Below are positions 40,210-57,668 of a stretch of DNA of 64,000 bases, one piece after another. The position numbers and the translations under genes are program-made. The notes beneath the pieces are model-generated. The model saw only the letters and a program-made list of their open reading frames with translations. It did no database searches and was not told the DNA's origin. Position 1 is the first letter of the stretch. Every line of letters starts with the position of its first letter. Origin of the DNA: Tieghemostelium lacteum (Eukaryota; Evosea; Eumycetozoa; Dictyosteliales; Raperosteliaceae); NCBI GenBank assembly GCA_001606155.1, contig LODT01000028.1:1092735-1156734 (forward strand), given 5' to 3'.

Positions 40210-40215
40210 TGTAAG
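40210..40215. repeat. Target-site duplication, left copy (TGTAAG)
   Basis: TGTAAG directly precedes the left terminal repeat. The identical six bases directly follow the right terminal repeat at 57663-57668. A 6-base duplication is the usual mark of Polinton integration. Confidence 0.88.
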
Positions 40216-40384
40216 TTTTTTGGTGGGCATTAGTCGCTAGCTCCTTTTTTAAACTTTACCGCCTCGCTTCGCTCAGCTTTGGAAATTTATTCTTTTTTTT
40301 CTATATTTTTATTATTATTTTTAATAAAATTAATAAATTAATTAAATTAATGAAATTAATAGAAAAAATAAAAGATTTTAAAAT
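40216..40384 (+). repeat. Polinton left terminal inverted repeat
   Basis: It starts TTTTTTGGTGGGCATTAG and contains a GC-rich core (about 40259-40280) that stands out in AT-rich DNA. It matches the reverse complement of 57496-57662 except for one base in the length of an A run. Weaker similarity continues some tens of bases inward. Confidence 0.93.
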
Positions 40385-40596
40385 TGATTATTAGATTTTA
40401 GGATTTTTTGATTAAAATTGATTAATTATTTTTGAACAGATTATTATCAAACAGTTTTGTATAGAAAATTATTATTTAACAGCTTTTTATTGATGGTGAT
40501 CATTTTTTAGCAAAATAACAAAAATTTTGTTTTTTTGCTATTCCACAAAAAAAATGGTATAAAATTTATTTTATTAATAAATATTAATAATATAAA

Positions 40597-42337
40597 ATGG
40601 AACAAAAAACAATTGTAATTGACAATGAAATTGAACTAAGATTAAAAAATAATCACAACAAAACAACAGGTGATACAAATATTTTATTCGGTAGTGTTGA
40701 AACACCATTTTATTTTGAAGATTTAAAACAGATGGTTGATGATGAGAAAATAGATTTAGCAAAGAGATATATTCAAAACTACTTTTGTAAACTTTATACA
40801 GTATCAGGAGTACTATTTTGGAATCCTGCATCTTATGATAAAGTTATTTTAATAGCAGATAAAGATGTAGCTTTAAGTTATATTAGAAAAGATCTTGAAG
40901 TAGTAACAGGTTTTGACAAAAAGAAAAAACCAATAACATGGAATGTTCATGAATGGTTTTTTAAAGAAAATACAGATAGATATTCAATTGATTGTCATGT
41001 TCATAAACCACCAGTATATTCTGAAAAGGGTATATCATACATTAACTCGTTTAAAGGATTCCTGTACAGAGATAAAATCTCTTTTCAAAAAAGATTAGAG
41101 GATACAGAAACTAAAAAATACATAGAAGAAGGTATTCAAACAATATGGGATCATATTCTACAGGTATTATGCTCTAACAACCAAGATCAATTTATTTATG
41201 TAAAAAACTGGTTCCAATGGATGATTTCGGGTTATAAAACCAATACATGTTTATATTTAACATCACCACAAGGTACAGGAAAATCTACAGTTTTAGATTT
41301 TATATCAAAATTAGTTTTAGGTCAATCCATAACACATACAGTTTCAGATGCATCAGTTCTTGATCCCAATAGCTTTAATAGTGAATTATCAGGTAAGATT
41401 TTATTGGTATTAGAAGAACTTCCTTCTTCAAATACTGGTCAATGGAATAAAATATCAGATAATCTTAAAAACTTTATAACTGGTAGTACATTATTAATCA
41501 AAGGGAAATATAAAGAAAACTATTCAATTAAAAATGTAATCAACACAATTATAAGTTCTAATCATAGATGTGCAATTAAAATAGAAAACTCAGATAGAAG
41601 AATTGTTGCAACAGATGTATCCAATTGTAAAATAGGAGATACAAATTATTTTGATAAGTTACATAAATTAACAAATGATCCATTAATTGGTGAAGCATTC
41701 TTTTGGGAATGTGTTCAACAAAGAGATCCATCTTTTGATTTTAGAAAGATTCCAAAATCTGAATTAAAGACAGATATTATTTGTGATTCGTTATCATTAC
41801 CTATTGAATTTATAAAAGAGGAGTATGTGTTGAAAAATAAAAGTTTGACAGGTCTATTAAAACAAATATTCGAAGCATGCACAAAATATTGTGAATCAAA
41901 AAATAAAACCAAACCCAAATCTAAAAGAGCTTTCAGTAGTGAGTTAAAAAATATTGGAATAGAATCATATAATTCTTCCAAACATAATAACCATGTTTAT
42001 TTTGATATTGCTCATGAAAAATTAAAAGATATCTACATAAAAAAAGGTTACATCTCATCCACAGATGAATTTGGACTACAAACAAATGAACAACCAATAA
42101 ATCACATTGAAGAATTACAAAATGAAATTAAATTGTTAAAAGAAAAAATATCTCAATTGGAATCAGAGAATTTAAAATTAAAAACACCACCTCCAAAAGA
42201 TGAATTAGAAGATGGAGATATTGAAATTCTAAAAAATACTCATAATTTATTAAATAATTTTAAAGGTCCTAAATCTTATCCAAGAAAATATACAAAAAAT
42301 GGGAAAGAAATATATCCAAAATATAATGATTTAAGTG

Positions 42338-42398
<61 letters not shown>

Positions 42399-42480
42399 AT
42401 CAAAAAATAAGAAAAAAACTATTATGGATAGTGATGATGATACCACTGAAATCATAAATAAATTTAGAAACAATAAATAA
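40597..42480 (+). CDS. Polinton superfamily 3 (D5-like) helicase
   Basis: 627 residues. The N-terminal 190 residues are unassigned and may include a primase-like part. The helicase core has Walker A SPQGTGKSTVLDF (about 223) and the acidic Walker B stretch KILLVLEELPSS (about 267). The SF3 sensor region is NVINTIISSNHRC (about 308), followed by NSDRRIVATDVS. Such helicases unwind DNA for virus-type replication and are usual in virophages and related elements. The tail has a coiled coil (about 505-530) and a run of Ser-Glu pairs (about 580-602) coded by a 6-base repeat, then an acidic end. It is the first gene after the left repeat. Its ATG follows an AATATAAA leader. Confidence 0.85.
42334..42400 (+). 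repeat. GAAAGT hexanucleotide microsatellite in the helicase gene
   Basis: About eleven tandem GAAAGT units encode a Ser-Glu run. Such arrays change length easily without breaking the frame. Confidence 0.9.
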
Positions 42481-42509
42481 ACTAATTACTATTAATCAAT
42501 AATAATTAA

Positions 42510-43712
42510 TTACCCTCTTCTCCTTCTTGATAGATTAACTGGTTCATCATTATCAGGTAATGATTCTGCATAATCTAACATTTCTTTTGCTTCATTTGTA
42601 TATTTACCTTCATACAGATCAAATAATTCTTTTTTAATTTGCCTATTAGTTTTTGTTAATTTTAATGAGTTAAATGTTATTGGTTGGCTTTTAACAACTT
42701 TTTGTTTTCTAATTTGTTTTGGAGGAGGAGTAGGAGGTGGTGGTAGTTCTATTTCATTGAGTTCTGGTTCATTATTAAAACCATCAATAGTATCTTCATT
42801 ATTATCTTTTGGTTTACCTCTAATAACTCTTTTTTCAGGTTTCTCTTCATTATCATCAACCAATTGTAGTTGATTTTTGGTATACCATATCTTACTTCCT
42901 TTTACTTTATAGAGTGGAGGATAACCTGGTTTAATCATTAATTTTGAAATGGTTTTAACTTTAGGATTCCATCTAATATCACTAGCTCTAAAATTTCCAT
43001 GTAATCTCTTTTCTGTAGTATAATCAATTGGATTATCTAAAAGACTTCGAACCTTGTCACCAATATTCAATATTTCACAAGAATCACCTTCACAAACAGG
43101 TAAATCTGATATTAATTTCCCTTTACTAACAACCCTCTTCAACCTCTTATTCAATGACTTTATGATTACTGGTAAATCACTAACCCATGATCTTGAAACT
43201 TCTCCAGTTAGAATTTCTTCTGCTGTCATTCTTTTATGTAATGCTGATCCAATACTCTTATTTCTAGATTCAACTAATGCTTGATTTCTATGTCTACCAA
43301 CAATACCATATCGAATATCCACTCCTTCATCTTCAAAATATTTTTTAGTTTCGCCTTTAAACTCTGATCCTGGATCCATTTGAATTTGAACAGGTAATTT
43401 CAAAATTCCTCTTTTATAAATTTCTTCAAATGCCTCTTTAACTTCTGATGAATATTTAGTTTTCAATGGTTCAGCATCAGTTAATCTATTACCTAAATCA
43501 ACAACAACCAATACATATTTGAATCCTTCATCATCTGGTAAAAATAATAAATCTGCTTGTTGTTTATAATTCTCTTCAAATTCTTGAATACGAGGAATAT
43601 TCAATCCTTTATCTTTTTTAGGTATTTTGTACAGTTGATAAAGTTCTTGTTTTTCTAAATAATCTTTATCATTTTTACTAATTCCAAAATCTTTATAAAG
43701 TTTCTTTTTCAT
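42510..43712 (-). CDS. Polinton retroviral-type (rve) integrase
   Basis: 400 residues. The catalytic core runs from QADLLFL (first Asp, about 53) through QIQMDPGSEFKG (second Asp, about 113) to NQALVESRNKSIG (catalytic Glu, about 148): the D,D-E layout of retroviral integrases and Polintons. Residues about 215-285 (IGDKVRSLLDN...PLYKVKGSKIWYTKNQLQL) look like the small SH3/chromo-like C-terminal domain. The tail is Pro/Lys rich. This enzyme joins element ends to host DNA and would account for the 6-base duplication. It is transcribed toward the helicase gene and shares an AT-rich upstream region with the mini zinc finger gene. Confidence 0.9.
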   Translation of the reverse strand: MKKKLYKDFGISKNDKDYLEKQELYQLYKIPKKDKGLNIPRIQEFEENYKQQADLLFLPDDEGFKYVLVVVDLGNRLTDAEPLKTKYSSEVKEAFEEIYKRGILKLPVQIQMDPGSEFKGETKKYFEDEGVDIRYGIVGRHRNQALVESRNKSIGSALHKRMTAEEILTGEVSRSWVSDLPVIIKSLNKRLKRVVSKGKLISDLPVCEGDSCEILNIGDKVRSLLDNPIDYTTEKRLHGNFRASDIRWNPKVKTISKLMIKPGYPPLYKVKGSKIWYTKNQLQLVDDNEEKPEKRVIRGKPKDNNEDTIDGFNNEPELNEIELPPPPTPPPKQIRKQKVVKSQPITFNSLKLTKTNRQIKKELFDLYEGKYTNEAKEMLDYAESLPDNDEPVNLSRRRRG

Positions 43713-43760
43713 TTTAAAAAAGGTATAAATAAAATTTTATATATAAATTATAACAATAGA
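43712..43760. promoter_or_regulatory. Shared upstream region of integrase and mini zinc-finger genes
   Basis: These 49 bases separate two divergent starts and contain TTTTATATATAAATTATAAC. TATATAA-type strings of this kind sit just before most genes of the element. Function as a bidirectional promoter is inferred. Confidence 0.45.
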
Positions 43761-43937
43761 ATGTGTAGAAAAGTAAATCCAAATTTAATTCATAAGAAAT
43801 TTATGGATAAATACAATAATGATGAGACATATAGAGAAAATCACAAAAAGTATATTAATGAAAAATTAAAATGCGAATGTGGAAGAATGGTTGGAAGATC
43901 ACATCAAGTTAGACATAGAAAAAAGTCAAATACATAA
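43761..43937 (+). CDS. Polinton mini zinc-finger protein 1
   Basis: 58 residues. The second half has CECGRMVGRSHQVRHRKKS, a C-x-C-G-R followed by two His, matching the pattern of the second small protein at 46243-46443 (CDCGRVINKSSLTKHYQ...YH). Both are basic and could bind nucleic acid. The ATG is preceded by TATATAAATTATAAC, shared with the divergent integrase gene. Confidence 0.6.
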   Translation: MCRKVNPNLIHKKFMDKYNNDETYRENHKKYINEKLKCECGRMVGRSHQVRHRKKSNT

Positions 43938-44068
43938 ACAGAATTTAGAAAATAAAAAAATGGATGAAGATATTTTAGAGATATTATATTACAAAAAAAA
44001 ATGACTTAAATTTTTATTTTCTAAATAATGGTATAAAAAATATAATCGATTCTCTTTTATATATAAAA

Positions 44069-46141
44069 ATGTCTACAAAAAAAACATCAAAATCAAATGA
44101 AACAACAGTAACACCACTATATAGAAGAGGTATTGGAAAATATAGTACCAAAAGATTAAAAGTTCTTGCAATACAAAAATATGGATCTTTTACAAAAGAT
44201 GATGTTGAAAAAAAGGCTCAAGCAATAAGTAATGAATATAAAAAGCAAGGGCAAAAAGGCACTATTGAAATCTCAATGCAATTTGGAAAGAACCTATGGT
44301 ACACAAATAGTATATGGACAAATGTAGGTGATAGAGTTGCTATATTTAATGCTGATGATTATACTAAAAAAAATGGTTTAGTTATAGAAGAGCCAGATTT
44401 TTTCAAATCCTTTATAGTTTATTTTATTCCAACATCTGAATCAGGTGGTTGTAGTGGTGAATGGAATAATTGTTTATATCAAGCAATTTCTGTAATATGT
44501 AAAAAAGAAATAACAAAAGCATTTCCAAAGATGTCTAAACTCAAACAATTTTTAGGTTTAGAGAAGAGAGATCCAGTACATTATTCTCGTGTTTCTGAAA
44601 TTGAAGATAAAATAAAAGTATGTATATCAGTAACAGGTGATCATGAATATATATCTGAAAAGGATTACAAAAAGAAGATTGAAATAAATCTACAGAGTGG
44701 ACATTATTCTGCAGTCATTCCAAAAAAAGATTATAGAGTAAAAGGAATTGCATATATAGAAAAAAAACCAGCTGTCTATAGATATTTAGATGGTGATAAA
44801 ATTGAAATATATGATGGAACTAATTATTTGGAAATGGAAAAAAAAGAATTTGTTAAAGATCGTCACAATTGTAAGTCATCAAAATACACTTATATCACTA
44901 TAAATACCACCTACTTCCCAAAGAAGGAAAAGAAAGATAAGAACAAAAAGAAGAAAGAGGTAGTAAAATATGATACCAACCAATATCATTTTGCAATGGA
45001 AGAAACTTTTAAATCATTTATTAGAATTGCTGATAAATTAAAAGAAATAACTCAAGGGAAAGTAAATATGTACAAAACCGGAGAAACAATTCAAAAAGCA
45101 GGTTACAAAATATTTTTAGATGATAAAAGTGTTAAAGGATTTAAAGCAGAAAAACTAGAAAAAGATGAAGCATATTGGATTAAAAAAGCATCAACAAGTG
45201 CATTGATATATAGTGAGGATGGCTATACAGGTCCATTATATAAATATGATATTAACAAAATGTATGCAGCAATAATGAAGAATCAGCAATTTCAAGTACC
45301 TATCAAAAGAGGAGAATTTATAAAAATGACTCAAGAGGAGTTTGATAATGGAAAGTTTATTAGATTTGGAATTTATAGAGCAATAGTTAGTGGCAATTCT
45401 AAAGCATTTAGATATAATCCAGACAATTTTTATACTCATTACGATTTAAATTTAGCCAGAGAAATTTTAAAATTAAACATTGAATTGATACAAACAGAAG
45501 AACCAAATGCATTAATATATGAAGGTGACTCTAAAGTCAATTCAGATAAATTATTGAAAGATTATATCAACCAAATTATGGATTGGATAAATACAGCAAA
45601 AGATAGAAATGAAGATGAAGAAGTTATAACAACATTAAAATACATGTATCAAAGATTTTGGGGATATTTGGGTAAAAAAAAGAATTGTAAAAGACATGCA
45701 AAGAATGAAGTTAAAAATGAATACACAGATGAGGATGGTAATTTAACTATAGAGTCAGAGATTTTGTATGAAAATTTAGAAGTGGATGTTAATCCTCATT
45801 CAATGAAACCATTGAATGATAACATTACTACAACAAAATTTTTATATGAAAATGAACCTTATGATACTCCTTTCGCAAGAATTGCTCCATTTATTATTTC
45901 TAGAGGAAGAAAAATTACAGGTACTATTATAGCTCCACATTTAGATTCAATTAAAAGAATTCATACTGATGGATTCTATTCAACACAACAGTTTGAATTG
46001 AGAAAAGAAAAAAAGAGTTCCTCTTCATTAGATGATCCAATGATGGGTGATGAGGTTGGAGATATTAGATATGAAGGATTCTGTGAATTTGGTACTATAA
46101 ATAAAAACAGAAAGATTCCTGATGAAAATTTCATTATATAA
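44069..46141 (+). CDS. Polinton family B DNA polymerase with OTU-like N-terminal region
   Basis: 690 residues. Palm motifs are visible: A as YKYDINKMYAAIM (about 389), B as YQRFWGYLGKK (about 528) and C as RIHTDGFYS (about 630). They fit the protein-primed family B group of Polintons, virophages and adenoviruses. Ahead of them, residues about 125-215 contain CSGEWNNCLYQAISV and, some 75 residues later, QSGHYSAVI. That is the Cys and His block order of OTU-type cysteine proteases. OTU-like N-terminal regions have been described for some Polinton and bidnavirus polymerases. The element's ends would serve as replication origins. TTTTATATATAAAA lies immediately before the ATG. Confidence 0.85.
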   Translation: MSTKKTSKSNETTVTPLYRRGIGKYSTKRLKVLAIQKYGSFTKDDVEKKAQAISNEYKKQGQKGTIEISMQFGKNLWYTNSIWTNVGDRVAIFNADDYTKKNGLVIEEPDFFKSFIVYFIPTSESGGCSGEWNNCLYQAISVICKKEITKAFPKMSKLKQFLGLEKRDPVHYSRVSEIEDKIKVCISVTGDHEYISEKDYKKKIEINLQSGHYSAVIPKKDYRVKGIAYIEKKPAVYRYLDGDKIEIYDGTNYLEMEKKEFVKDRHNCKSSKYTYITINTTYFPKKEKKDKNKKKKEVVKYDTNQYHFAMEETFKSFIRIADKLKEITQGKVNMYKTGETIQKAGYKIFLDDKSVKGFKAEKLEKDEAYWIKKASTSALIYSEDGYTGPLYKYDINKMYAAIMKNQQFQVPIKRGEFIKMTQEEFDNGKFIRFGIYRAIVSGNSKAFRYNPDNFYTHYDLNLAREILKLNIELIQTEEPNALIYEGDSKVNSDKLLKDYINQIMDWINTAKDRNEDEEVITTLKYMYQRFWGYLGKKKNCKRHAKNEVKNEYTDEDGNLTIESEILYENLEVDVNPHSMKPLNDNITTTKFLYENEPYDTPFARIAPFIISRGRKITGTIIAPHLDSIKRIHTDGFYSTQQFELRKEKKSSSSLDDPMMGDEVGDIRYEGFCEFGTINKNRKIPDENFII

Positions 46142-46242
46142 TATTTTTTTAATCTAAATTAAATTTAAGGAAAAGTGGAGATTACACAATTTTCCTCCAA
46201 AAATAACTTTTTGATTTTTTTTAATTTATAATTAAAAAAAAA

Positions 46243-46443
46243 ATGAGTGAAGAGAAATCTTACATGCAGATTTGGTACATAAAAAACAGAGAAAGGCATC
46301 TCAATAATTTAAATACTAAAATTAACTGTGACTGCGGTCGTGTTATAAATAAATCTAGCCTCACAAAACACTATCAAACTAATTATCATAAAAATAGAAC
46401 GTGTAATTTAGATCTGATTGGTCAACATAATATATTTAATTAA
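46243..46443 (+). CDS. Polinton mini zinc-finger protein 2
   Basis: 66 residues. The core NCDCGRVINKSSLTKHYQTN continues to YHKNRTC, giving a C-x-C...H...H finger with the same CxCGR start as the protein at 43761-43937. It follows the polymerase gene by 101 bases on the same strand. Role unknown; nucleic-acid binding is the simplest guess. Confidence 0.6.
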   Translation: MSEEKSYMQIWYIKNRERHLNNLNTKINCDCGRVINKSSLTKHYQTNYHKNRTCNLDLIGQHNIFN

Positions 46444-46517
46444 GCTAATTCTATTTTTTATTATTAATTATTTTACTCTCTTATTAATTCTTCTAATATT
46501 TGATTAATTAAATTATA

Positions 46518-47105
46518 ATGGATATACCTACTGATATAAATGATGTCGATTTATATGTAGATAATGCCCTACATTCTTTAAGTAAACATGTAAATTTGGG
46601 AATAGATTATAATTTAAGAGTAAACAAAATAATTAATAATAAAAAGACCCTAGTAGCGAATAAAGCTTCATTGGAGAAAAAAGCTACTAATCTTACCATC
46701 CTGAAAGAAAATATTAATGCATCTGTCAAGAAATACCTCGAGACCAGATTTGATGTGGAGGTTTATGAAGAAGCAATTGAACACCTAGAAGAAAAAGAAA
46801 GAAAGGAAAAAGAGGCAATTGAAATAAAAGAACTAATTGAGAGAGAAATGCTGCAAAAAAAAGAAAAATTAGATCGATTGAAGTTGCGTCAACAAACAGA
46901 AAAATTAAATCGAAAACAAAGTTTTCAGAGAAAATCTCAAATACAAGAAGAACAAGAAGAACAACAAGAAGAAGAACAAGAAGAACAAGAAGAACAAGAA
47001 GAAGAACAAGAAGAACAAGAACAAGAGCAAGAACAACAAAAACAAAAACAACAAAAACAAAAAAAAAATTCCAAAAAAAGAAGTAGCAAGAGAAGAAAGA
47101 GTTGA
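46518..47105 (+). CDS. Polinton coiled-coil protein, Glu/Gln-rich
   Basis: 195 residues. Residues 1-75 form a helical domain (VDLYVDNALHSLSKHVNLGI). The rest is a continuous charged helix with a long Glu/Gln run coded by GAA/CAA repeats and a very basic end (KKNSKKRSSKRRKS). No family is recognised. Its place between the replication genes and the virion block gives no clear hint. Confidence 0.55.
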   Translation: MDIPTDINDVDLYVDNALHSLSKHVNLGIDYNLRVNKIINNKKTLVANKASLEKKATNLTILKENINASVKKYLETRFDVEVYEEAIEHLEEKERKEKEAIEIKELIEREMLQKKEKLDRLKLRQQTEKLNRKQSFQRKSQIQEEQEEQQEEEQEEQEEQEEEQEEQEQEQEQQKQKQQKQKKNSKKRSSKRRKS

Positions 47106-47465
47106 TAAAGATAAGAGAGTCCATAAAAAGAAAGCTGATCCAGTAGATTCTAATGAAGAAAGAATGAAAAATGCTAATCCAAATAGTTCTTCAAGCTCCT
47201 CACAACACCTTGGTGTACATGTAGAGAAAGATATAGAAATGCAAGATATTAATCCTAATGCTTAATCATGTACCAAACAACACCACAATAAGAAAAAAAC
47301 TGAGAAAAAAAAAACAGATTTAAAAGACCTCTGGTAACTAATCATCCTTGGTAACCCACTGTAAATAGCGTAGAAAAAAAGAGATAAAAAAAATAAAGAT
47401 TTAAAAGATCACCCCTGTCAATATAGACTAAAAGATATAAAAATAGAAATTATTTTTAATATTAT
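47106..47465. other. Unassigned spacer inside the Polinton
   Basis: These 360 bases lie between the coiled-coil gene and the tiny membrane protein. The first 160 bases look coding-like (Lys, Asn and Ser rich), but I assign no gene. Confidence 0.4.
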
Positions 47466-47582
47466 ATGGACCCAGCAACTTTAACTCTAGTAATTGGTTT
47501 TTGTACTCTTTTTATTGAAAGATTATTTGAGTATAGTAAAAGAATTAGAAAATCCTCATGTTTTGGAGGAGATTATTTATGA
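47466..47582 (+). CDS. Polinton tiny membrane protein
   Basis: 38 residues starting MDPATLTLVIGFCTLFIERL, a single hydrophobic segment, followed by KRIRKSSCFGGDYL. Short proteins with one membrane helix followed by a basic K-K-S-x-C patch are common in large DNA viruses and their small relatives. The call rests on this shape only. The predicted topology is a short outside end with a basic inner tail. Confidence 0.5.
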   Translation: MDPATLTLVIGFCTLFIERLFEYSKRIRKSSCFGGDYL

Positions 47583-47657
47583 AAATGAATCTAAGGAAAA
47601 ATAAATTAATAATATCTATTGAACAATAAATATTATTTCATATATTAATTAATAAAA

Positions 47658-47683
47658 ACACTCCGACAAAATTGTCGGAGTGT
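47658..47683. terminator. Perfect palindrome between convergent Polinton genes
   Basis: ACACTCCGACAA and TTGTCGGAGTGT flank a central AA, giving 26 bases that are fully self-complementary. It lies 9 bases past the stop of the protease gene (minus strand) and 75 bases past the tiny membrane gene (plus strand). A transcription-end or RNA-processing hairpin serving both is the simplest reading, but this is inference. Confidence 0.5.
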
Positions 47684-47692
47684 CGGGAATAC

Positions 47693-49417: not shown

Positions 49418-49606
49418 TTCAATATCAGTTTTCCTTGATCTTAAATATATTCTCTTTTTACCCTTTTTTACATATCTCTTTCCTTTTTTTGTTGAAAATA
49501 ATCTTTTTGGTCTGTATTTTTTTATTTTGTTTTATTTTCTTTTTACCATTACCAATGGTACCAGTCATCTTTATATAATAATTATCAATATTATATAATG
49601 TATACT

Positions 49607-50068
49607 TTAAAATTTTGTCAACAAATTTCTTTTTAAAATTTCAGATTTAGAATTCATGTTATACGAATTATGTATTGGTTTTAAAACTTCTTGTTCCACT
49701 AGATTACGTGGAATAGGATTTGTTTCTTTAACAGGTAAGGGATCCTCATCAATAACTTCTTTTTTATGATTTTTTTTAGAAAATAGATCCATCATCTGTT
49801 CCATTTTTTTATTTAAATTATCCAATTCTTTTTTATTTTGATCAACGATTATCTTTTTGGTTTTAGGTTTAACAGGAGCCTTTTGAACAGCACTTTTTTT
49901 AATTTTAATTGGAGCAGGTTTTGGAGGTGGAATTTCAATTTCCTCTTCCATTTCTAATTCATCCTCATCATCAGAGGAATCACTATCATAAATAATATAT
50001 TGACTTTTCTTAGCTTCTCTAGCTTTAATTAAATTTTGTGCAGATGTTTTAGATCTTCCGTCTGACAT
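49607..50068 (-). CDS. Polinton Lys/Pro-rich acidic-basic protein, unknown
   Basis: 153 residues. After a start MSDGRSKTSAQNLIKAREAK comes an acidic run (DSDSSDDEDELEMEEEIEI), then a Pro/Lys section (PPPKPAPIKIKKSAVQKAP). A short helix LDNLNKKMEQMMDLFSKKN and a polar tail follow. No family is recognised. It starts 38 bases from the penton-like gene in the opposite direction, so the two share an upstream region. Virion or scaffold-type roles are possible but unsupported. Confidence 0.55.
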   Translation of the reverse strand: MSDGRSKTSAQNLIKAREAKKSQYIIYDSDSSDDEDELEMEEEIEIPPPKPAPIKIKKSAVQKAPVKPKTKKIIVDQNKKELDNLNKKMEQMMDLFSKKNHKKEVIDEDPLPVKETNPIPRNLVEQEVLKPIHNSYNMNSKSEILKRNLLTKF

Positions 50069-50106
50069 TTGTATTATTATATTTATAATATTATATTATA
50101 TAAAGA

Positions 50107-50943
50107 ATGTCTTTAATAACACACAAAAAGATATATTACATCAATTCACATAATAGAACCAATGGTACTAATTCTCATTTCACTACTAATATAGTATTTT
50201 ATCCTCAAGATAAATTTGATAGAGTAGTATTATTACAGGCAACAATTCCAAAATCATTTTATACAGTTAGAAGAAATTTAAATACATTTACTTTAACAGA
50301 AGGATTACAGAGTTCAACCATTACAATTCCAATTGGAAATTATAGTAGAAAATCATTACAAGATACATTACAAACTTTACTTAATCAATCATCACCAAAT
50401 AACATTATCTATTCTATCAATTGGCCGAACAGTAAACAACCAAATACAGGTAAATATACATTCACATGTTCAAATGTTAATAATATACAACCTATATTTA
50501 CATTCACAGATAAATTATTTAGACAATTAGGTTTTAATGAGAATACTTCAAATCAATTTAATAATTATATTTTAGAATCAACTAATGTTATTAATCTTCA
50601 ATCAGATAGTGTAATTTATATTCACTCAGATATTTGTACAAATGGAGTTGATGATGTTTTACAAGAGATCTATACAAGTGCAGGTAATCCAGATTTTTCA
50701 AATATTCATTGGGAGAATTATGATGTAGAAAGTTATAGTAAACAATTGGTTTCAGGTACTAATACCACATTCACTATTTATTTAGCTGATCAAGATGGTA
50801 ATGAAATAAATTTAAATGGAGTAAATATGAATTTGACATTGATGCTATACAAACATAACGACATTTCTCAATTGACTAGAGGATACATTAATTATCGTTT
50901 GGAAAAAGATAACGAAACCATAAGTATAGATGATCAAATATAA
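50107..50943 (+). CDS. Polinton penton-like minor capsid protein
   Basis: 278 residues, rich in beta strands, starting THKKIYYINSHNRTNGTNSH. The stretch VVLLQATIPKSFYTV is characteristic of Polinton minor capsid proteins, which have a single jelly-roll and sit at the vertices. Position directly before the major capsid gene agrees with this. The call is by pattern and context; no structure comparison was possible. Confidence 0.75.
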   Translation: MSLITHKKIYYINSHNRTNGTNSHFTTNIVFYPQDKFDRVVLLQATIPKSFYTVRRNLNTFTLTEGLQSSTITIPIGNYSRKSLQDTLQTLLNQSSPNNIIYSINWPNSKQPNTGKYTFTCSNVNNIQPIFTFTDKLFRQLGFNENTSNQFNNYILESTNVINLQSDSVIYIHSDICTNGVDDVLQEIYTSAGNPDFSNIHWENYDVESYSKQLVSGTNTTFTIYLADQDGNEINLNGVNMNLTLMLYKHNDISQLTRGYINYRLEKDNETISIDDQI

Positions 50944-50980
50944 TATTTTAATATAATAATAATATAATAAAACAATAAAA

Positions 50981-52333
50981 ATGGAACAAGTAGTAAGTAA
51001 AGAATTGGATTACAGACCATTATTGGTTTCTGAACCAGAATATGAATTTACAAGATTGTATCCACAATCGGGTACAACATCAACAACAGTAGCTAATGGT
51101 GGAAATGAAACAATATTTGAAATTCCTCCAACTAAAGCATTTAATTTTGCTAAATCATGGTTTCAATTTCAATTTATTTTACCATCAACAGCTGCATTAA
51201 TTGGATTTGCTTATGCAGATTTTACACCTTTTTTTAGACAAATTCAAGTTTATACAAAAGGAGGTTTAAATTTAATGGACCATTCTAATTATAATTTGCA
51301 TTCTAAAATGGTAACTAAAATAAAAAAATCAATAGTTGAAACTATGAACTCTTATAATACTGCACAGTATACATCCTTACAAAGTTATACTCCTTGTTAT
51401 TCTAGTAATAATTTACCAGGAGTTAATGGTGCTGCTCCTACATTTAATAAGAGATATGATAATACCTCTCCAGATAAAGCATACACAGAACCAGCATATT
51501 TAATTTCAGGTTCAACAGCAGCAAATCCAGTAATTTTAAATGTTACAATTCCATTTAGTGAACTCTACGAGTCAATTTTATCTGTTGATAAAGACATAAT
51601 GCTAAATGAAACCTTGCAAGTGAGATTTGTGTGGGATAGTTTATCGAATATAGGATTTGGTGCAACTGCTATTACTAATCCTACTGGTGGTGCAGCTGCA
51701 TTAGCATTACCTGTTTCGAATAATGTTAATAACATGGAAATTCATTTGGCAATTGAAAAGAATATAGATGTTGTGAATAATCTTCAACAAAAAATTTCAA
51801 GTTCAGAAGGTTTTTCATTAATGATTCCATATTGTTTCTATAACCAAACATTATTAACTGGTACAAATCAATCAGTAACTTTAAGAATTAATAGACAAAA
51901 TGGTATGACATTGGAAAGAATTTATCACAGTTTATTTGCACCTTCAGCTGTATATACTGCTATATATAATAATAATCAAGCTAGTACTGGATTGGATCAT
52001 TTCTATACCAATTTGAATAACAATAGATTAACTCAATACGATCTTTATCCTTCACAATTGGATGATTATAAAATTTTAAGACCAATTCTATTAAATTCCA
52101 CAGTCCAAACTCCAAATATTCATTATTATAATTGGTGTTGGGTTGAGGAATTTGGTGATGGATCATTTGATTATAATCCTGATAATGTGGTTTCAGGTAT
52201 TGATTTAAATTTAGGTGAACAGAAATGGGATTTTGTTGCATTTTTGAATCCTGCATCCAATCTAACTCATCAATCTACTATTGTTTGTAAAAGAAAATTA
52301 GTTATTACTGGTAATGGATTAGTTTTAATATAA
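50981..52333 (+). CDS. Polinton major capsid protein (double jelly-roll)
   Basis: 450 residues, mostly beta-strand. The N-terminal part reads FEIPPTKAFNFAKSWFQFQF followed by YADFTPFFRQIQVYTKGG. This is like the first strands and the conserved 'I..v.l.t..G..l' segment of double jelly-roll capsid proteins in Polintons and virophages. It starts 37 bases after the penton-like gene and is followed at once by three more virion-type genes. The size is at the small end for the family. Confidence 0.82.
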   Translation: MEQVVSKELDYRPLLVSEPEYEFTRLYPQSGTTSTTVANGGNETIFEIPPTKAFNFAKSWFQFQFILPSTAALIGFAYADFTPFFRQIQVYTKGGLNLMDHSNYNLHSKMVTKIKKSIVETMNSYNTAQYTSLQSYTPCYSSNNLPGVNGAAPTFNKRYDNTSPDKAYTEPAYLISGSTAANPVILNVTIPFSELYESILSVDKDIMLNETLQVRFVWDSLSNIGFGATAITNPTGGAAALALPVSNNVNNMEIHLAIEKNIDVVNNLQQKISSSEGFSLMIPYCFYNQTLLTGTNQSVTLRINRQNGMTLERIYHSLFAPSAVYTAIYNNNQASTGLDHFYTNLNNNRLTQYDLYPSQLDDYKILRPILLNSTVQTPNIHYYNWCWVEEFGDGSFDYNPDNVVSGIDLNLGEQKWDFVAFLNPASNLTHQSTIVCKRKLVITGNGLVLI

Positions 52334-52352
52334 TCTATTATTAATATATAAA

Positions 52353-52727
52353 ATGACAAGTTTCCAATTAAATTCAAATTCCATAATAAAAACTGTAATG
52401 GTCAATGGTGTGATTCCTGCAAATGGAAAACTGTATTTCCCAATTAATAATGTTAATTTCGTTCCTGATTTGATATCTCTAAAATATTTTTCTGTAACTG
52501 GAACAATAGGTGTTGGTTTAGTTCCTGTTATTAGAAGCTCTTTAATTAGTGATAATTATTTATGTACATTCAATGCCTATTCCAGTCAACAAGTGGATTT
52601 TAAATTTATGAATAAAAGTAACTCTATGATACAAGGTCAATATTACTTTGAATGTGTTGATCAAAATAATGTTCCTCTTGATGAGAATATAGATATTGCA
52701 TTGACAATTGAATTTATCAAATATTAA
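52353..52727 (+). CDS. Polinton small beta-rich protein, unknown
   Basis: 124 residues with alternating hydrophobic strands (KTVMVNGVIPANGKLYFPIN; LISLKYFSVTGTIGVGLVPV). It starts 19 bases after the major capsid stop, behind AATATATAAA. No family is recognised; placement suggests a minor virion component. Confidence 0.6.
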   Translation: MTSFQLNSNSIIKTVMVNGVIPANGKLYFPINNVNFVPDLISLKYFSVTGTIGVGLVPVIRSSLISDNYLCTFNAYSSQQVDFKFMNKSNSMIQGQYYFECVDQNNVPLDENIDIALTIEFIKY

Positions 52728-52745
52728 TCATAATATATAAATAAT

Positions 52746-53531
52746 ATGATTAAAGCAAAAAAAATTAATGATGTTAAAGTTGATCCAATTAAAATACCTC
52801 CAAAGCCTAAACATATTTTAGGGTCTGACTTGTTTGATCAAGTGAGTGCAAATATATTAATTTGTGCTCCAAAAAATAGTGGTAAAACTGTAGTAGTGAA
52901 AAAGATACTTGATGAATGTGCAGATAAAAATACAAAGGTTATTATATTTTGTGGTACTGTGAATAATGATGCATCATGGATACAAATTAGAAATGATTTA
53001 GAAAAAAGAAATATTGAATATTTTGCATACACAAGCATATTTAATGAAAAGGTAAATATAATTGATTCAATTATTCAAAAATTGCAAGTTGATGAGAAAC
53101 AAAATGAACAAGTTATAAATCGGAAAGTGATTTTAACTGATGGTGGAGAAAAAAAAATAAAAAAATCTAAATTTGCTTCACCTGATTTCATTTTTATTTT
53201 TGATGATATATCAAATGAGTTAAAAGACCCAGCAATACCAAAATTAATGAAGATTCATAGACATTTTAGCTCTAAAATTATCATTAGTACTCAATCATGG
53301 AAAGATACATCATCTAGTATTAGAAAAGGAAATTTAGATTATGTTCTTTTATTTAAAAACATTAATGATGAGACTTTAAAAACAATCTATGAAGAATTAT
53401 CAATAACTATTCCTTTTAGGATGTTTAATGAACTGTATCATGATGCAACAAAAGAAAAATATCATTTCTTTTACATTGATAGAAATGGTTTCTTTAGGAA
53501 AGATTTTAATATAGAATATACAAATGAATAA
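52746..53531 (+). CDS. Polinton A32-like (FtsK/HerA) packaging ATPase
   Basis: 261 residues. Walker A is ILICAPKNSGKTVVVKKIL (about 36-55) and Walker B is DFIFIFDDISNEL (about 139-150). A sensor-type stretch KIIISTQSWKDTSS lies near 180. This matches the genome-packaging ATPases shared by Polintons, virophages and large DNA viruses. It follows the small beta-rich gene after 18 bases. Confidence 0.88.
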   Translation: MIKAKKINDVKVDPIKIPPKPKHILGSDLFDQVSANILICAPKNSGKTVVVKKILDECADKNTKVIIFCGTVNNDASWIQIRNDLEKRNIEYFAYTSIFNEKVNIIDSIIQKLQVDEKQNEQVINRKVILTDGGEKKIKKSKFASPDFIFIFDDISNELKDPAIPKLMKIHRHFSSKIIISTQSWKDTSSSIRKGNLDYVLLFKNINDETLKTIYEELSITIPFRMFNELYHDATKEKYHFFYIDRNGFFRKDFNIEYTNE

Positions 53532-53559
53532 TAATTTATTTTGATAATATATATATAAA

Positions 53560-53940
53560 ATGTTAAAAATGGGAAAGGCAAGTCCTGTTCTTCATTCAAG
53601 AGCAGCATTGCAAGATGCATATCAATCAGGAGGTATGGTTAGTTCATTTGGAGGTCCCAACATGCAAACAAGTTTAGGAGGGCAACAAGGTGATGGTGTT
53701 TTGGATTGGTTAAAGAAAGCTAATAATTATCTCAAAGATAAAAAGATTATTTCATCTGTAGCAAGAGTATTAGGTTCAGCAGGTGTTCCTGTTGCTGGAA
53801 CAGTTGCAGATGTTGCAGGTAAACTTGGTTATGGTGGTGCTAAACCAAAAAAGAAAGGTTTTGGTAAAAAGAAACAAAAAGGAGGTACAAGTTATGGCAT
53901 TAATGGTGGTGCTAAAAAGGGTAGACCAAAGAAGAAATAA
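53560..53940 (+). CDS. Polinton basic, Gly-rich virion-type protein
   Basis: 126 residues. The middle (VLDWLKKANNYLKDKKIISS then VARVLGSAG) forms an amphipathic helix. The C-terminus is very basic with repeated Gly-Lys groups (KPKKKGFGKKKQKGG). Similar small proteins in adenovirus-like and Polinton-like genomes are thought to bind DNA or disturb membranes from within the particle. The call is by composition and place. TATATATATAAA lies just before the ATG. Confidence 0.55.
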   Translation: MLKMGKASPVLHSRAALQDAYQSGGMVSSFGGPNMQTSLGGQQGDGVLDWLKKANNYLKDKKIISSVARVLGSAGVPVAGTVADVAGKLGYGGAKPKKKGFGKKKQKGGTSYGINGGAKKGRPKKK

Positions 53941-53967
53941 TATTAAATTTTTATAAAAAATTAATAT

Positions 53968-54498
53968 TTAAAATTTTACATTCTTGATTTTTAAAATTTT
54001 ATAGTCCTGATTAGAACAGGTCAGCTTACTTATATCATTATCTATTTGTAACTTCATTTTTTCCACATTTTCAAGAGCTAATAATTTTACTTCATTAATT
54101 AAATCTTCCTTGTTTTTAATTTTAATTAGATATTTTTCATTTTCCCATTTTAATTTATGATATTTATTTTTAATCTCTTCTATTTTCTCACATAGTTTTT
54201 TGTAAGCAATTAACATATTTTTACTATTTTGATTGAATTTTATTATTTCTTGTTTGAATTTTTCATTTTTTTTAAAATATTTGATAATGATACCACTATT
54301 TACAGTGTATTCAACAATGTTTATTAATTCCATATCTTCGTAATTAATCTCAATAGCCCAATGTTTTTCATGATACATATCACTTATCTCTTTGACCATT
54401 AACAATTTGAAAGAACTTCTAAAATTTTCTTCAAGATCTTCAATAATCTCAGGATAATCTTTAAATACTTGTTTGTAATCTAACACTGCTTCTTCCAT
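53968..54498 (-). CDS. Polinton coiled-coil protein, unknown
   Basis: 176 residues. An N-terminal mixed region (residues 1-75, including HEKHWAIEINYEDMELINIV) is followed by a helical tail rich in Lys and Glu. No family is recognised. It is divergent from the fibre-like gene, with 65 AT-rich bases between them and a TATATATAAAAA string before its ATG. Confidence 0.55.
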   Translation of the reverse strand: MEEAVLDYKQVFKDYPEIIEDLEENFRSSFKLLMVKEISDMYHEKHWAIEINYEDMELINIVEYTVNSGIIIKYFKKNEKFKQEIIKFNQNSKNMLIAYKKLCEKIEEIKNKYHKLKWENEKYLIKIKNKEDLINEVKLLALENVEKMKLQIDNDISKLTCSNQDYKILKIKNVKF

Positions 54499-54563
54499 TT
54501 TTATATATATTAATAAATTATTTTTTCATTTATACTAATTTATACTAATTATTATATATAAAA

Positions 54564-56150
54564 ATGACATCAAGATTTGTAGATTTATTCAACGAAAATG
54601 AAGATATAGAAATTGCAGAGGTAGATGAATTAACAGTAACAGATCAATTGATAATAGAAAGTAATAATAATCAATTGGTATTTGGAGAAGATCCAAATCA
54701 AGTCACATTGAATGTTGATACAAGTTTCAGATCAACCATTAACATTCCTTCATTAGCACCACATTTAGTTGCAGATGTTGTTTTAACAGAAACAGATCAA
54801 TCAATAAGAGGAGTAAAGAAATTTAATGATACATTAATCGCAGAGGATATATTATCAACAGATTTAACATCAACAAATGGTATTATCAATAATTTAGATT
54901 CTGATATTGGAACTATAGATACATTAACAACTGAAACAATCAATTCAACAACATCAATCACAAGCCCCATTGGAAATATAGATTCATTAGATAGTGATAC
55001 TATAAATGTTTCAACATCACTTACAACACCATCATTAATTGTTACCAATAGTATCTCTGCACCAAATGTAAGTGCAACAGCAGCTCTAAATGGACCTTTA
55101 TTAAATGTTGATGAAATTAAAACATTAACACCATTTCCTTCACCTCTTAAAATAAATTTAGGTGGTATAACTAATACAGGAACTATTTTTTCTAAAGGTG
55201 TCATAGCACAATATTTAACATCAAATGTTGATACTACAGTGAATGGTTTATTTACATGTGTTGATATGATTGGAAAGAATATTGATATCACTCAATACCC
55301 AGTAGTACCTGGTCAACCTAATGGAGAATTAAAAGCAAAGTCTATTTCATCTGATTTAATAAATTCAACAACTATAAATGGATCAACAATCAATTATAAT
55401 TCATTATCAGGTTTTAATATAACATCAACAAGTGTTCTCAAAGTTTTTACAGTAAATGCAGCTAATGGAAGTAATATCCTAATTTCTACACCAGATTCAA
55501 TTCGGATTCTAAATAGTACAGTCTCTACTGGTATAATTATCGATACTACAAAGATTTCTTTGACTGCATCAACAGGAAATAATATTCAATTGATTTCACC
55601 AAGCACTGATATTACAATAACAACTCCATTAACTCAACTAAGTGGTCAAGTTACTATTGGTGGTGCAACAACTATAAATAATACAGCTTCAATTACAGGA
55701 GGTGTAGTAAATGGTTTGAAATTTATAAACACATCTATTCCATTATATGTACCATCATCACTGAACTATTATGAAGAGTTTTCTGGATTTATGGGTTTTG
55801 ATTTTGGCTCTGCAACTACAGGATCAATATCAGTTAAAATGTCAAGAATTGGTAAAACTTGTTTTCTCTATTTACCATCTTTTACTGTTCCTTCATCAAC
55901 CAACACAGCTGCATGTATTGGAAGTTGGAGTGGAGGTTGGCCTACTAGATATACTCCAATTTTAAATGATCTTAGTGATTGTGGTTCCTATAAAATAGGA
56001 TCTAATCCCATTCAACCAGGTAGATTTGTTGTTTTTAATAGTGGTATAACTTACCAAATTTTTATTCAGAATATCAACGCTGGTACCATTGTCACAAGTA
56101 GTCAAACACTACAAGTAAGTACTCATACATTTACCTTTCAAACTTCATAA
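54564..56150 (+). CDS. Polinton fibre-like protein
   Basis: 528 residues. Residues about 75-330 carry repeated short beta units (LTTETINSTTSITSPIGNID; SLTTPSLIVTNSISAPNVSA) of the shaft type seen in trimeric virus and phage fibres. There are further Ile/Thr/Ser-rich repeats to about 395. The last 130 residues (FMGFDFGSATTGSISVKMSR...FTFQTS) form a non-repeated head-like domain. A spike or fibre at the vertices is the natural guess given the penton-like gene nearby. Parts of this gene are the best-kept element remnants elsewhere in the window (1999-3050 and 3648-4355). Confidence 0.7.
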   Translation: MTSRFVDLFNENEDIEIAEVDELTVTDQLIIESNNNQLVFGEDPNQVTLNVDTSFRSTINIPSLAPHLVADVVLTETDQSIRGVKKFNDTLIAEDILSTDLTSTNGIINNLDSDIGTIDTLTTETINSTTSITSPIGNIDSLDSDTINVSTSLTTPSLIVTNSISAPNVSATAALNGPLLNVDEIKTLTPFPSPLKINLGGITNTGTIFSKGVIAQYLTSNVDTTVNGLFTCVDMIGKNIDITQYPVVPGQPNGELKAKSISSDLINSTTINGSTINYNSLSGFNITSTSVLKVFTVNAANGSNILISTPDSIRILNSTVSTGIIIDTTKISLTASTGNNIQLISPSTDITITTPLTQLSGQVTIGGATTINNTASITGGVVNGLKFINTSIPLYVPSSLNYYEEFSGFMGFDFGSATTGSISVKMSRIGKTCFLYLPSFTVPSSTNTAACIGSWSGGWPTRYTPILNDLSDCGSYKIGSNPIQPGRFVVFNSGITYQIFIQNINAGTIVTSSQTLQVSTHTFTFQTS

Positions 56151-56173
56151 ATTATAATATATAGTATTATAGA

Positions 56174-56311
56174 ATGTCAGAAAGTTACTGTGTAGTTTGT
56201 AAAAAGAAAACAAAGGATATTGATCCAAAAGAGGTTGTTTTGAAGAATGGAAGAAAAGCAATAAAGAGTAAATGTGCTGTTTGTGGTACTACAAAGTTTA
56301 GATTTATTTAA
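56174..56311 (+). CDS. Polinton DUF5679-like zinc-ribbon protein
   Basis: 45 residues. YCVVCKKKTKDIDPKEVVLK and AIKSKCAVCGTTKFRFI give two C-x-x-C pairs about 25 residues apart, the DUF5679 pattern found in many large viruses and phages. A near-identical copy is at 1999-2136. It follows the fibre gene by 23 bases and is met head-on by the T5orf172-like gene 60 bases on. Confidence 0.8.
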   Translation: MSESYCVVCKKKTKDIDPKEVVLKNGRKAIKSKCAVCGTTKFRFI

Positions 56312-56371
56312 ATATATTGATTAATATATGTAAATGGATAATTTAATTATAAATATTCAAGATTTAATTGA

Positions 56372-57211
56372 TCAATTAAATCTTATAGGTGTTTCGATAA
56401 ATCCAGCAGCAGATATAAGTGAAGGAATTTCATTTATATCATCAAATTTATACCATTCACCCCTGTGTTTTCTATCGTTGAACAGATCTTTTAATTTGTT
56501 TTCTAATGGTTTTTTTAACTCCAATGTGCTTGGAATCACATATTCTAATTTTAATACCCTTGGATTACCTGTTTGAAGTTTGGTAATTCTATTTTCTATA
56601 TTTTTAGTTTCCCCAAGTTTAACCATACCAGAAGGAGGTACCTCAGATATAAAATAACATAAAGGCATAAGGGAAAATTTGGTCAGTGGGTTTGATGTGT
56701 TTGTAGGAGTAGCAAATGTAGGTGTTGTACTAGAAGAGGTGGTGGTTGTAGTGGTAGTTGTAGTACTTGTAGAAGTTGTTGCTTCAGGTGTTGAATTGGA
56801 ATTTGATTGATCTACACTAATTAGATTGTTGAGTGTAATATATGTAACAGCCAATTTAAGAAATGACATAATTTTGGGATTATTTATTTTGTTAAATTGG
56901 CTTGTTGTTTGTTTAAGGAAAGGAAGTAAGAAAGAATTACTTTGAGAGGAAGAATATCCCATTGCTTTACCAATCGTTGGTGCTTCATAAACTTGGTGAA
57001 AAACTCCTAGAAATACTCTAATATGTGGAAAATCGACTGCTTCTAATTTTGGGTTATTTTTGTCACTGAAATATTTTGAAATTACAAGGTTGGTATTGCT
57101 TATGATTTTATTGTCAAATGATAAAGGAATAAGAAACAAATCATCGAAAGCTGTTTTTTGATCTTCTTGTGTTGGTACTGTTTTGCTTGGTCCTTTTGCT
57201 GTAGTTGACAT
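56372..57211 (-). CDS. Polinton T5orf172/GIY-YIG-like protein
   Basis: 279 residues. The N-terminal 115 residues are a helical domain I do not recognise. A Thr/Ser-rich linker (about 118-155) follows. The C-terminal domain (about 165-275) reads YFISEVPPSGMVKLGETKNI, ENRITKLQTGNPRVLKLEYV, LENKLKDLFND and HRGEWYKF. This matches the T5orf172 branch of the GIY-YIG nuclease group, common in viruses and mobile elements. It is the last gene before the right repeat. In fragment A the same place beside the zinc ribbon is taken by a PD-(D/E)XK-like gene. Confidence 0.7.
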   Translation of the reverse strand: MSTTAKGPSKTVPTQEDQKTAFDDLFLIPLSFDNKIISNTNLVISKYFSDKNNPKLEAVDFPHIRVFLGVFHQVYEAPTIGKAMGYSSSQSNSFLLPFLKQTTSQFNKINNPKIMSFLKLAVTYITLNNLISVDQSNSNSTPEATTSTSTTTTTTTTTSSSTTPTFATPTNTSNPLTKFSLMPLCYFISEVPPSGMVKLGETKNIENRITKLQTGNPRVLKLEYVIPSTLELKKPLENKLKDLFNDRKHRGEWYKFDDINEIPSLISAAGFIETPIRFN

Positions 57212-57495
57212 TTAAATTGTAATTTAACTGTTGTGAGACTCTTAATTATAAATTAAATTAAAAAAAAATCAAATTGTTTTTGAAAAAAAAAAAATGAAAT
57301 TTTTGAGATAATTGAAATTCATAAAATTTAAACCATTTTTTTAAAAACAATCAATCATCAATCATCATTAATAAAATATGCAATAAAAAAAATCTATCAA
57401 TAATCAATTTTTAAAATCTTTTATTTTTATTATTAATTTTAATAATAAAATAATTAAAAAGATTATCAAAAAAATCCTAAAATCTACTATACAAC

Positions 57496-57662
57496 TTTTA
57501 AAATCTTTTATTTTTCTATTAATTTCATTAATTTAATTAATTTATTAATTTTATTAAAAATAATAATAAAAATATAGAAAAAAAAGAATAAATTTCCAAA
57601 GCTGAGCGAAGCGAGGCGGTAAAGTTTAAAAAAGGAGCTAGCGACTAATGCCCACCAAAAAA
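57496..57662 (-). repeat. Polinton right terminal inverted repeat
   Basis: Reverse complement of 40216-40384 apart from one base in an A run. It ends GGGCATTAG-complement CTAATGCCCACCAAAAAA. Bases 57212-57495, between the last gene and this repeat, hold only AT-rich sequence with weaker inverted similarity to the left end. Confidence 0.93.
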
Positions 57663-57668
57663 TGTAAG
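57663..57668. repeat. Target-site duplication, right copy (TGTAAG)
   Basis: Identical to 40210-40215 and directly abutting the right terminal repeat. Confidence 0.88.

Follow-up and report, generated by a model that had tools for sequence, protein, structure and literature searches.

The locus raises the question of whether a dictyostelid genome holds a complete, discretely bounded Polinton and, if so, with what machinery such an element would copy its DNA and have its genes read. In the 64,000-nucleotide stretch of Tieghemostelium lacteum DNA analysed here (the window), the element spans positions 40216-57662 with one TGTAAG on either side; the span given earlier, 40210-57668, is the element plus both copies of this hexamer. 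Aligned with the reverse complement of 57496-57662, positions 40216-40383 pair identically at 167 bases, with no substitution and one 1-base gap within an A run, in agreement with the initial annotation, which had described ends alike over about 168 bases with one length difference and the same hexamer just outside them. Inward of the repeats, similarity declines across 26 more bases, in which there are 3 mismatches and 1 gap. TGTAAG by itself is not rare, with 10 occurrences on one strand of the window and 19 on the other, and is significant because it is placed exactly at both repeat ends. Terminal inverted repeats with a 6-bp target duplication are a hallmark of Polintons/Mavericks, and the consulted part of PMC8547959 gives 5-6 bp for the target duplication of mavirus and Mavericks.

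We read the locus, with a probability of about 0.86, as a T. lacteum Polinton (polintovirus) present in single copy, inserted recently and apparently intact, from a lineage whose protein-primed family B polymerase (pPolB) would have the mavirus layout. An old, inactive or domesticated insertion, with ends alike through chance or conversion, would suit the state of the sister copies in the same genome, of which C39 and C23 (near 1.82 Mb) are broken and C36 is without replication genes, but the lack of any substitution among 167 paired end positions and the long open frames speak against it; we consider it very improbable, and an ancient or degraded element was rejected on the same two grounds. 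The proposal of a whole-looking, probably recent insertion in a dictyostelid stands, as a discrete and intact-looking element.

Counting copies of the 26-base GC-rich end core, as had been proposed, returned 3 places in 23,333,832 bases at up to 3 mismatches, and none for the reversed control. Two of these are the ends of the element; the third, 1.6 kb upstream at window 38568-38641, is a relic that matches at 69 of 74 bases, starting from the same T run and going inward. The relic match ends at the element boundary, though the query reached 16 bases past it. Copies with longer shared ends beyond that boundary, named beforehand as a refuting outcome, were looked for in the T. lacteum genome and not found. 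The same search of the assembly found no further full copy with these ends.

Table 1. Features of the element and its flanks (window coordinates).
Feature	Position	Strand	Basis or remark
Target duplication TGTAAG, left copy, 6 bp	40210..40215	.	Comparison of ends
Left terminal inverted repeat, starts TTTTTTGGTGGGC	40216..40383	+	168 b; no substitution, one 1-base gap against right
Superfamily 3 helicase (presumed label), 627 aa	40597..42480	+	DUF5906 E 1.2e-20; phage DNA primase PHROGs, best E 2.5e-26
Hairpin between convergent helicase/integrase stops	42483..42508	.	
RVE integrase, 400 aa	42510..43712	-	rve E 1.6e-7; PFV integrase E 9.3e-4; motif positions D72/D113/E148
pPolB, 690 aa	44069..46141	+	Fold comparison
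Gln/Glu-rich reading frame, 195 aa	46518..47105	+	Open frame; no Pfam match at E 0.1
Hairpin after protease stop	47658..47683	.	Perfect 11-bp stem
Ulp1-type cysteine protease, 563 aa	47693..49384	-	PF02902 E 2.7e-7; H458, Q513, C520
Hairpin after 153-aa frame	49569..49600	.	
Reading frame, 153 aa	49607..50068	-	Open frame; C36 counterpart 58% identical
Putative minor capsid (penton) protein, 278 aa	50107..50943	+	Position before MCP; conservation
A+T-only hairpin after penton-like gene	50946..50972	.	RNA folding not in favour, z 0.8
Double jelly-roll major capsid protein (MCP), 450 aa	50981..52333	+	Double jelly-roll fold
Reading frame, 124 aa	52353..52727	+	Open frame; C36 counterpart 47% identical
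Hairpin spanning 124-aa stop and ATPase start	52724..52753	.	
Putative packaging ATPase, 261 aa	52746..53531	+	PHROG large terminase E 5e-6; Walker A near 41, Walker B near 148
Gly/Lys-rich reading frame, 126 aa	53560..53940	+	Open frame; C36 counterpart 79% identical
Hairpin between convergent 126-aa/176-aa frames	53939..53968	.	Counterparts in C36 and C39 copies
Reading frame, 176 aa	53968..54498	-	Open frame; C36 counterpart 30% identical
Start-codon motif example TATATATAAAA	54553..54563	+	Directly 5' of ATG of 528-aa gene
528-aa protein	54564..56150	+	Open frame; no Pfam match; C36 counterpart 56% identical
Small Cys-rich frame, 45 aa	56174..56311	+	Two CxxC pairs; direct reading
Hairpin at 45-aa frame stop	56306..56335	.	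RNA folding of stretch not in favour, z 0.4
GIY-YIG-type nuclease, 279 aa	56372..57211	-	MUG113 E 1e-5
Right terminal inverted repeat, 167 b	57496..57662	-	Alignment of ends
Target duplication TGTAAG, right copy, 6 bp	57663..57668	.	Comparison of ends

The initial annotation had listed six core genes and at least nine others. Nine other frames were indeed counted, after five more of at least 80 aa that overlap these genes were dropped as unlikely genes. Among the core genes, polymerase, integrase, protease and MCP are confirmed. The integrase is of the RVE type known from Polintons/Mavericks, its rve match lying just under the cut-off (31.9 against 32.6 bits); the Ulp1-type protease, likewise a Polinton/Maverick feature, scores 31.1 bits against a cut-off of 20.7, and the MCP has the double jelly-roll fold of the group. 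The 261-aa protein is likely the packaging ATPase, judging from its Walker A and B strings and the PHROG large-terminase match, and no FtsK/A32-type or other packaging-ATPase model appeared among the Pfam matches. The sixth, the minor capsid protein, is putative, being named from gene order and conservation only (78% identity to the C36 copy, dN/dS 0.14). As for the remainder, the helicase is assigned to superfamily 3 presumptively, by its matches and motifs, the nuclease matches MUG113 at 26.5 bits (cut-off 22.3) and T5orf172 at E 0.0021, below its cut-off, and the 528-aa protein may be fibre-like by its make-up.

The 690 residues of the polymerase comprise an N-terminal domain, a vOTU-like segment (C135, H212), an exonuclease remnant without a conserved DxE, and a palm (D394, K524, D634) whose motif C reads T-D-G rather than D-T-D-S; a vOTU segment and a palm with no more than an exonuclease remnant are an arrangement expected of mavirus-type virophages. 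The mavirus polymerase was the best viral structural match of the predicted model, with TM-scores of only 0.48/0.53 and an rmsd of 24.3, values that indicate either a different packing of the domains or a mispredicted one; residues 1-26 of the model have pLDDT below 50. Position and topology suggest a putative terminal-protein domain in the N-terminus. Whole-protein comparison with solved folds gave no match for the N-terminal domain or the vOTU segment, the list being filled by polymerases.

At the sequence level, the window protein gave no polymerase domain in the Pfam scan, and DNA_pol_B_2 occurs in 2 of 17 aligned pPolB sequences, at 31.9 and 23.1 bits (cut-off 25.8, hence one above). Besides the window protein, that alignment includes 16 of 23 hits; the seven omitted were partial or weak hits and one truncated model of this protein. 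The capsid alignment likewise joins the window protein to 16 of 27 hits, the rest being duplicates, partial or weak. Each homology search scored about 8000 candidates. Nothing useful came from viral contigs or phages for pPolB, from viral or genome contigs for the capsid, or from sequence-profile searches of solved structures. Shortening of pPolB by a frameshift was rejected because the other 16 aligned sequences are of similar length (549-751 aa, 15 of them 616-751).

The 2024 preprint PMC11071308, in the part consulted, describes the mavirus layout as unique and the exonuclease as conserved in family B polymerases except that of mavirus, and advances the idea that exonuclease loss and a separate helicase compensate for each other. 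If the polymerase reading holds, a Polinton lineage would also have an exonuclease-poor pPolB of mavirus layout alongside a separate helicase, here combined with a capsid protein that seems nearer the NCLDV type and a different helicase. Exonuclease loss would then go with a separate superfamily 3 helicase in two cases, the second offering a test of the compensation idea, and the mavirus replication genes might have originated in this lineage. In the cycle we propose, priming would take place at the T6 ends through the N-terminal domain, which the vOTU segment would then release, two steps that follow PMC11071308. The linear DNA would be copied through strand displacement by palm and helicase and packaged by means of the ATPase, the protease and a double jelly-roll capsid (a fold established for the MCP only); the RVE integrase would then insert the linear form, leaving the 6-bp duplication observed.

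How the genes are read may show in signals at their boundaries. Of 14 element genes, 8 have ATATAAA no more than 20 nt from the start codon, as against 0 of 43 host-side frames, and the count of the best 7-mer near starts was reached in 0 of 1000 shuffles. Hairpins follow the stop in 9/15 element genes against 2/43 host-side frames (0/500 shuffles), folding energy alone being a weak test of them, and AATAAA within 150 nt does not discriminate (5/15 against 18/43). The start motif is absent from the sister copy on C36, and the C23 copy does not preserve the protease hairpin in this form.

Both kinds of sign resemble those of giant viruses and virophages, and the literature consulted in part uses both for Sputnik, mavirus and transpovirons. 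They could mark an endogenous virophage-like Polinton that relies on giant-virus machinery both to transcribe its genes and to end the transcripts, and that wakes only on infection, like mavirus with CroV. The counts above, the gaps of 18-37 nt between capsid-block genes (50107 to 53940), the mavirus-type polymerase and a fragment of a relative filed under the giant virus Harvfovirus all favour this, and we consider it less likely than not. Alternatively, motif and hairpins could be compact signals that belong to the element itself and serve host RNA polymerase II in the nucleus, with nothing more than shortness behind the A+T-rich gaps; we give this even odds. Short intergenic gaps suit it, as does the presence of TGGTATAAAA some 40 nt ahead of the start of both the helicase and the polymerase, a placement compatible with a host TATA box. 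However, the polymerase gene has TATATATAAAA at its start codon despite 356 b of upstream space, and dinucleotide-keeping shuffles reproduce neither the motif nor the hairpin count. Since a polymerase of mavirus form here accompanies giant-virus-like boundary signals, giant-virus dependence is worth testing; should the signals prove real, dictyostelids would be expected to have a giant virus of their own and, as a well-known laboratory group, to carry a defence element induced by virus.

Polintons had been called little studied in dictyostelids, which is partly right: a 2013 paper (PMC3671162) already covers those of Dictyostelium (Cavenderia) fasciculatum and Polysphondylium pallidum, and an Acytostelium pPolB is present in 2015 trees (PMC4642659, PMC4409740). 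The former belong to the same host group as the T. lacteum element, being other elements of other species compared here by description; the consulted part of PMC3671162 gives pPolB, RVE integrase, protease and ATPase as the Polinton core, includes both species in a helicase-tree legend and links GIY-YIG/Zn-ribbon to Dictyostelium Polintons, with no description of ends, target duplication or exonuclease loss. Neither exonuclease loss nor boundary signals in dictyostelid Polintons were met in the literature searched, which left out most subscription journals.

Beyond dictyostelids, mavirus/EMALEs share with our element the predicted pPolB layout (the closest structural match), a separate superfamily 3 helicase, an RVE integrase and motifs before genes (PMC8547959, as consulted), and the mavirus protease is homologous to that of Polintons (PMC3671162, likewise). 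They differ in that our capsid protein seems nearer the NCLDV type, our helicase best matches phage primases whereas that of mavirus is NCLDV-like (PMC3671162), and the start motif is ATATAAA instead of TCTA. Polinton-like viruses and transpovirons with a pPolB-S1H fusion also combine vOTU and palm without exonuclease, but have a superfamily 1 helicase fused to the polymerase, unlike the separate superfamily 3 helicase here (PMC11071308, in part). Animal Polintons/Mavericks such as P1-CB have the same ends, 6-bp duplication and core genes, with an exonuclease that the same source calls conserved, in contrast to our remnant. We file the element as a Polinton. Typical Polinton ends begin with AG, whereas those of the T. 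lacteum element begin with TTTTTTGG.

More speculatively, and we think this rather doubtful, dictyostelid Polintons, true Polintons by capsid and ends, would be the amoebozoan counterpart of endogenous virophages, with an exonuclease-poor, mavirus-type pPolB and a helicase, start motifs of late type and transcripts that end at hairpins, switched on by an unknown soil giant virus; the mavirus replication module would come from this lineage or share an ancestor with it, and so would not be peculiar to mavirus. Module exchange at C36 (an unchanged capsid module joined to another replication module) was unsupported by the seven neighbouring frames scanned with Pfam. Besides frames without an informative match, these included one with a Ty3 capsid model far below cut-off and one with a DDE transposase above it.

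The element spans 17,447 b of the Tieghemostelium lacteum genome and ends in terminal inverted repeats, 168 b long on the left and 167 b on the right, whose alignment shows a one-base difference in an A run and 0 substitutions, with TGTAAG standing directly outside both ends. Because the divergence since insertion has an upper limit of about 0.9% per arm (rule of three, 3 / (2 x 167)), the insertion counts as young on this basis, assuming that the repeats were equal when it occurred. The initial annotation had identified a Polinton in a dictyostelid, and it was right: the element is a member of this known kind. The analysis shows its ends, the target duplication, the open genes, and, as predictions, the capsid and polymerase folds. 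The layout of its protein-primed family B polymerase (pPolB), with a vOTU-like segment, an exonuclease remnant and a palm, is not described for Polintons in the portions of the literature covered here.

Fifteen frames, each intron-free and open, cover 14,730 of the 17,447 b, a count that excludes five overlapping frames of at least 80 aa. Supported identities are a superfamily 3 helicase, an RVE integrase, pPolB, a Ulp1 protease, the major capsid protein, and a GIY-YIG nuclease; a further gene likely encodes an ATPase. Two public gene models in this region may be wrong, since DLAC_05879 (719 aa) fuses the penton-like gene, encoding a putative minor capsid protein, with the capsid gene, and DLAC_05874 (589 aa) omits the polymerase N-terminal domain.

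In a sister module on contig C36, 8 of the 9 frames shared with the element remain open over roughly their whole length, and matches to polymerase, integrase, and helicase were absent from the stretches fetched there. Between the two copies, dN/dS is 0.143 for the penton-like gene, 0.149 for the capsid gene, and 0.109 for the ATPase gene (dS 1.0 to 1.8), values which indicate that capsid function has been preserved from the split of these lineages onward. For the remaining six genes in common, dN/dS ranges from 0.158 to 0.545, the 124-aa gene yielding no value owing to saturated dS. The C36 protease gene may be broken, as its frame is shortened (439 codons vs 563 in the element) and a stretch matching the N-terminus of the protease is separated from that frame, on its upstream side.

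Gene starts in the element share a motif. ATATAAA occurs within the 20 nt upstream of the start codon in 8 of the 14 genes scored (a set without the 45-aa frame), vs none of 43 control frames of at least 150 codons, which are not curated genes and come from the window plus 13 retrieved loci (L034-L046) with element-like parts masked and L031-L033 excluded. The motif was likewise found in 0 of the 27 control frames with at least 75% A+T upstream, and, where at least 80% A+T precedes the ATG, at 3/247 host ATGs and at 4/104 element ATGs that are not starts; dinucleotide shuffles gave 0 of 2000. With motif choice allowed for, the best 7-mer count was reached in 0/1000 shuffles, and the same held for 6- and 8-mers. 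As a point against such a signal, ATATAAA precedes 0/10 genes in the C36 copy, where TATATA lies within 25 nt in 5/10, one of these ten starts, that of the protease, being doubtful. About 40 nt upstream of the helicase and polymerase starts stands TGGTATAAAA; at 25-60 nt, GGTATAAA is present in 2/14 element genes, these same two, vs 1/18 host frames, and is perhaps an early-gene box.

Gene ends carry hairpins, scored as a stem of at least 10 with at most one mismatch and a loop of 3-8, within the stop codon and the next 45 nt. Nine of the 15 genes have one, from 7 distinct hairpins, because two convergent gene pairs share one each; shuffles averaged 1.29 and reached 9 in 0/500, and control frames gave 2/43. 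Several results count against these signals. The C36 copy has 3/10 (reached in 5/500 shuffles; the doubtful protease start is among the ten). Folding energies alone separate the element from the host side little, mean z being -1.45 for the element and -1.52 for C36 vs -0.95 for the host side, and AATAAA did not discriminate between element and control frames. A hairpin at the junction of the 126-aa and 176-aa frames is present in all three copies examined, with different inner sequence; that on contig C39, read by eye, has a loop of about 12, outside the counting range.

The same two types of sign, motif and hairpin, underlie the inferred dependence of virophages on giant viruses: in print, these are late promoters and hairpin polyadenylation sites for Sputnik, and the TCTA motif for mavirus and EMALEs of mavirus type (PMC8547959). 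These boundary signals make a giant-virus partner of the element a testable idea. The database entry for the giant virus Harvfovirus includes a 339-aa polymerase relative, A0A3G5A8K3 (identity 30%; TM-score 0.85 when normalised by this fragment), which may point to an element carried by, or binned with, a giant virus. Three capsid relatives (P0028, P0036, P0037) come from metagenome contigs that measure 17.9, 18.1, and 19.0 kb (the longest contig given per protein), approximately the element's length, and that may be free viral genomes. Another polymerase relative, P0014, has been assigned to a proteobacterial metagenome bin, probably as a contaminant.

Copying would be protein-primed from the T6 ends, where the repeated first base would permit a sliding-back start, as known from phi29-type systems. 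The best-kept N-terminal Tyr/Ser/Thr residues in the pPolB alignment, Y25 (14/16) and S54 (15/16), are candidate priming residues judging from conservation. By analogy with the family, the DDE integrase would carry out integration and the ATPase packaging.

Traces of related elements persist in the genome. The 26-b end core, allowing at most 3 mismatches, occurs at three places in the 23.3 Mb assembly (control 0): the two ends of the element and a relic 1.6 kb upstream of the new insertion, its sole occurrence elsewhere. This relic matches the element end at 69/74 bases, starting at the same T run, and all 5 differences fall within its first 22 bases. A further, more distant end, likewise with TTTTTTGGTGGGC, lies on contig C30; behind both relic ends, small frames of similar sequence were read by eye.

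Coordinates of the element, its relatives, and associated features (window positions unless a contig or locus is named)
Feature	Location	Remark
Polinton	40216-57662	
Relic end	38568-38641	
Relic with adjoining sequence	38568 to about 38960	left end of related element, then TGGTATAAAA box and small frame
C30 relic end with small frame	L005, about 1508-1870	small frame like that behind window relic
TGGTATAAAA before helicase	40540-40600	
TGGTATAAAA before polymerase	44020-44068	
pPolB gene	44069-46141	public model DLAC_05874
Penton-like and capsid genes	50107-52333	public model DLAC_05879
Capsid-only module	G000:C36:21131-31019 (L032, L033)	9 frames shared with element

The capsid-type relatives comprise the C36 module, a copy on C39 that contains a stop, and fragments on C23 near 1.82 Mb; C20 and C34 add two short matches. 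Ten further places hold polymerase fragments, and one or more stops interrupt a matched stretch at each of them; these counts are lower bounds.
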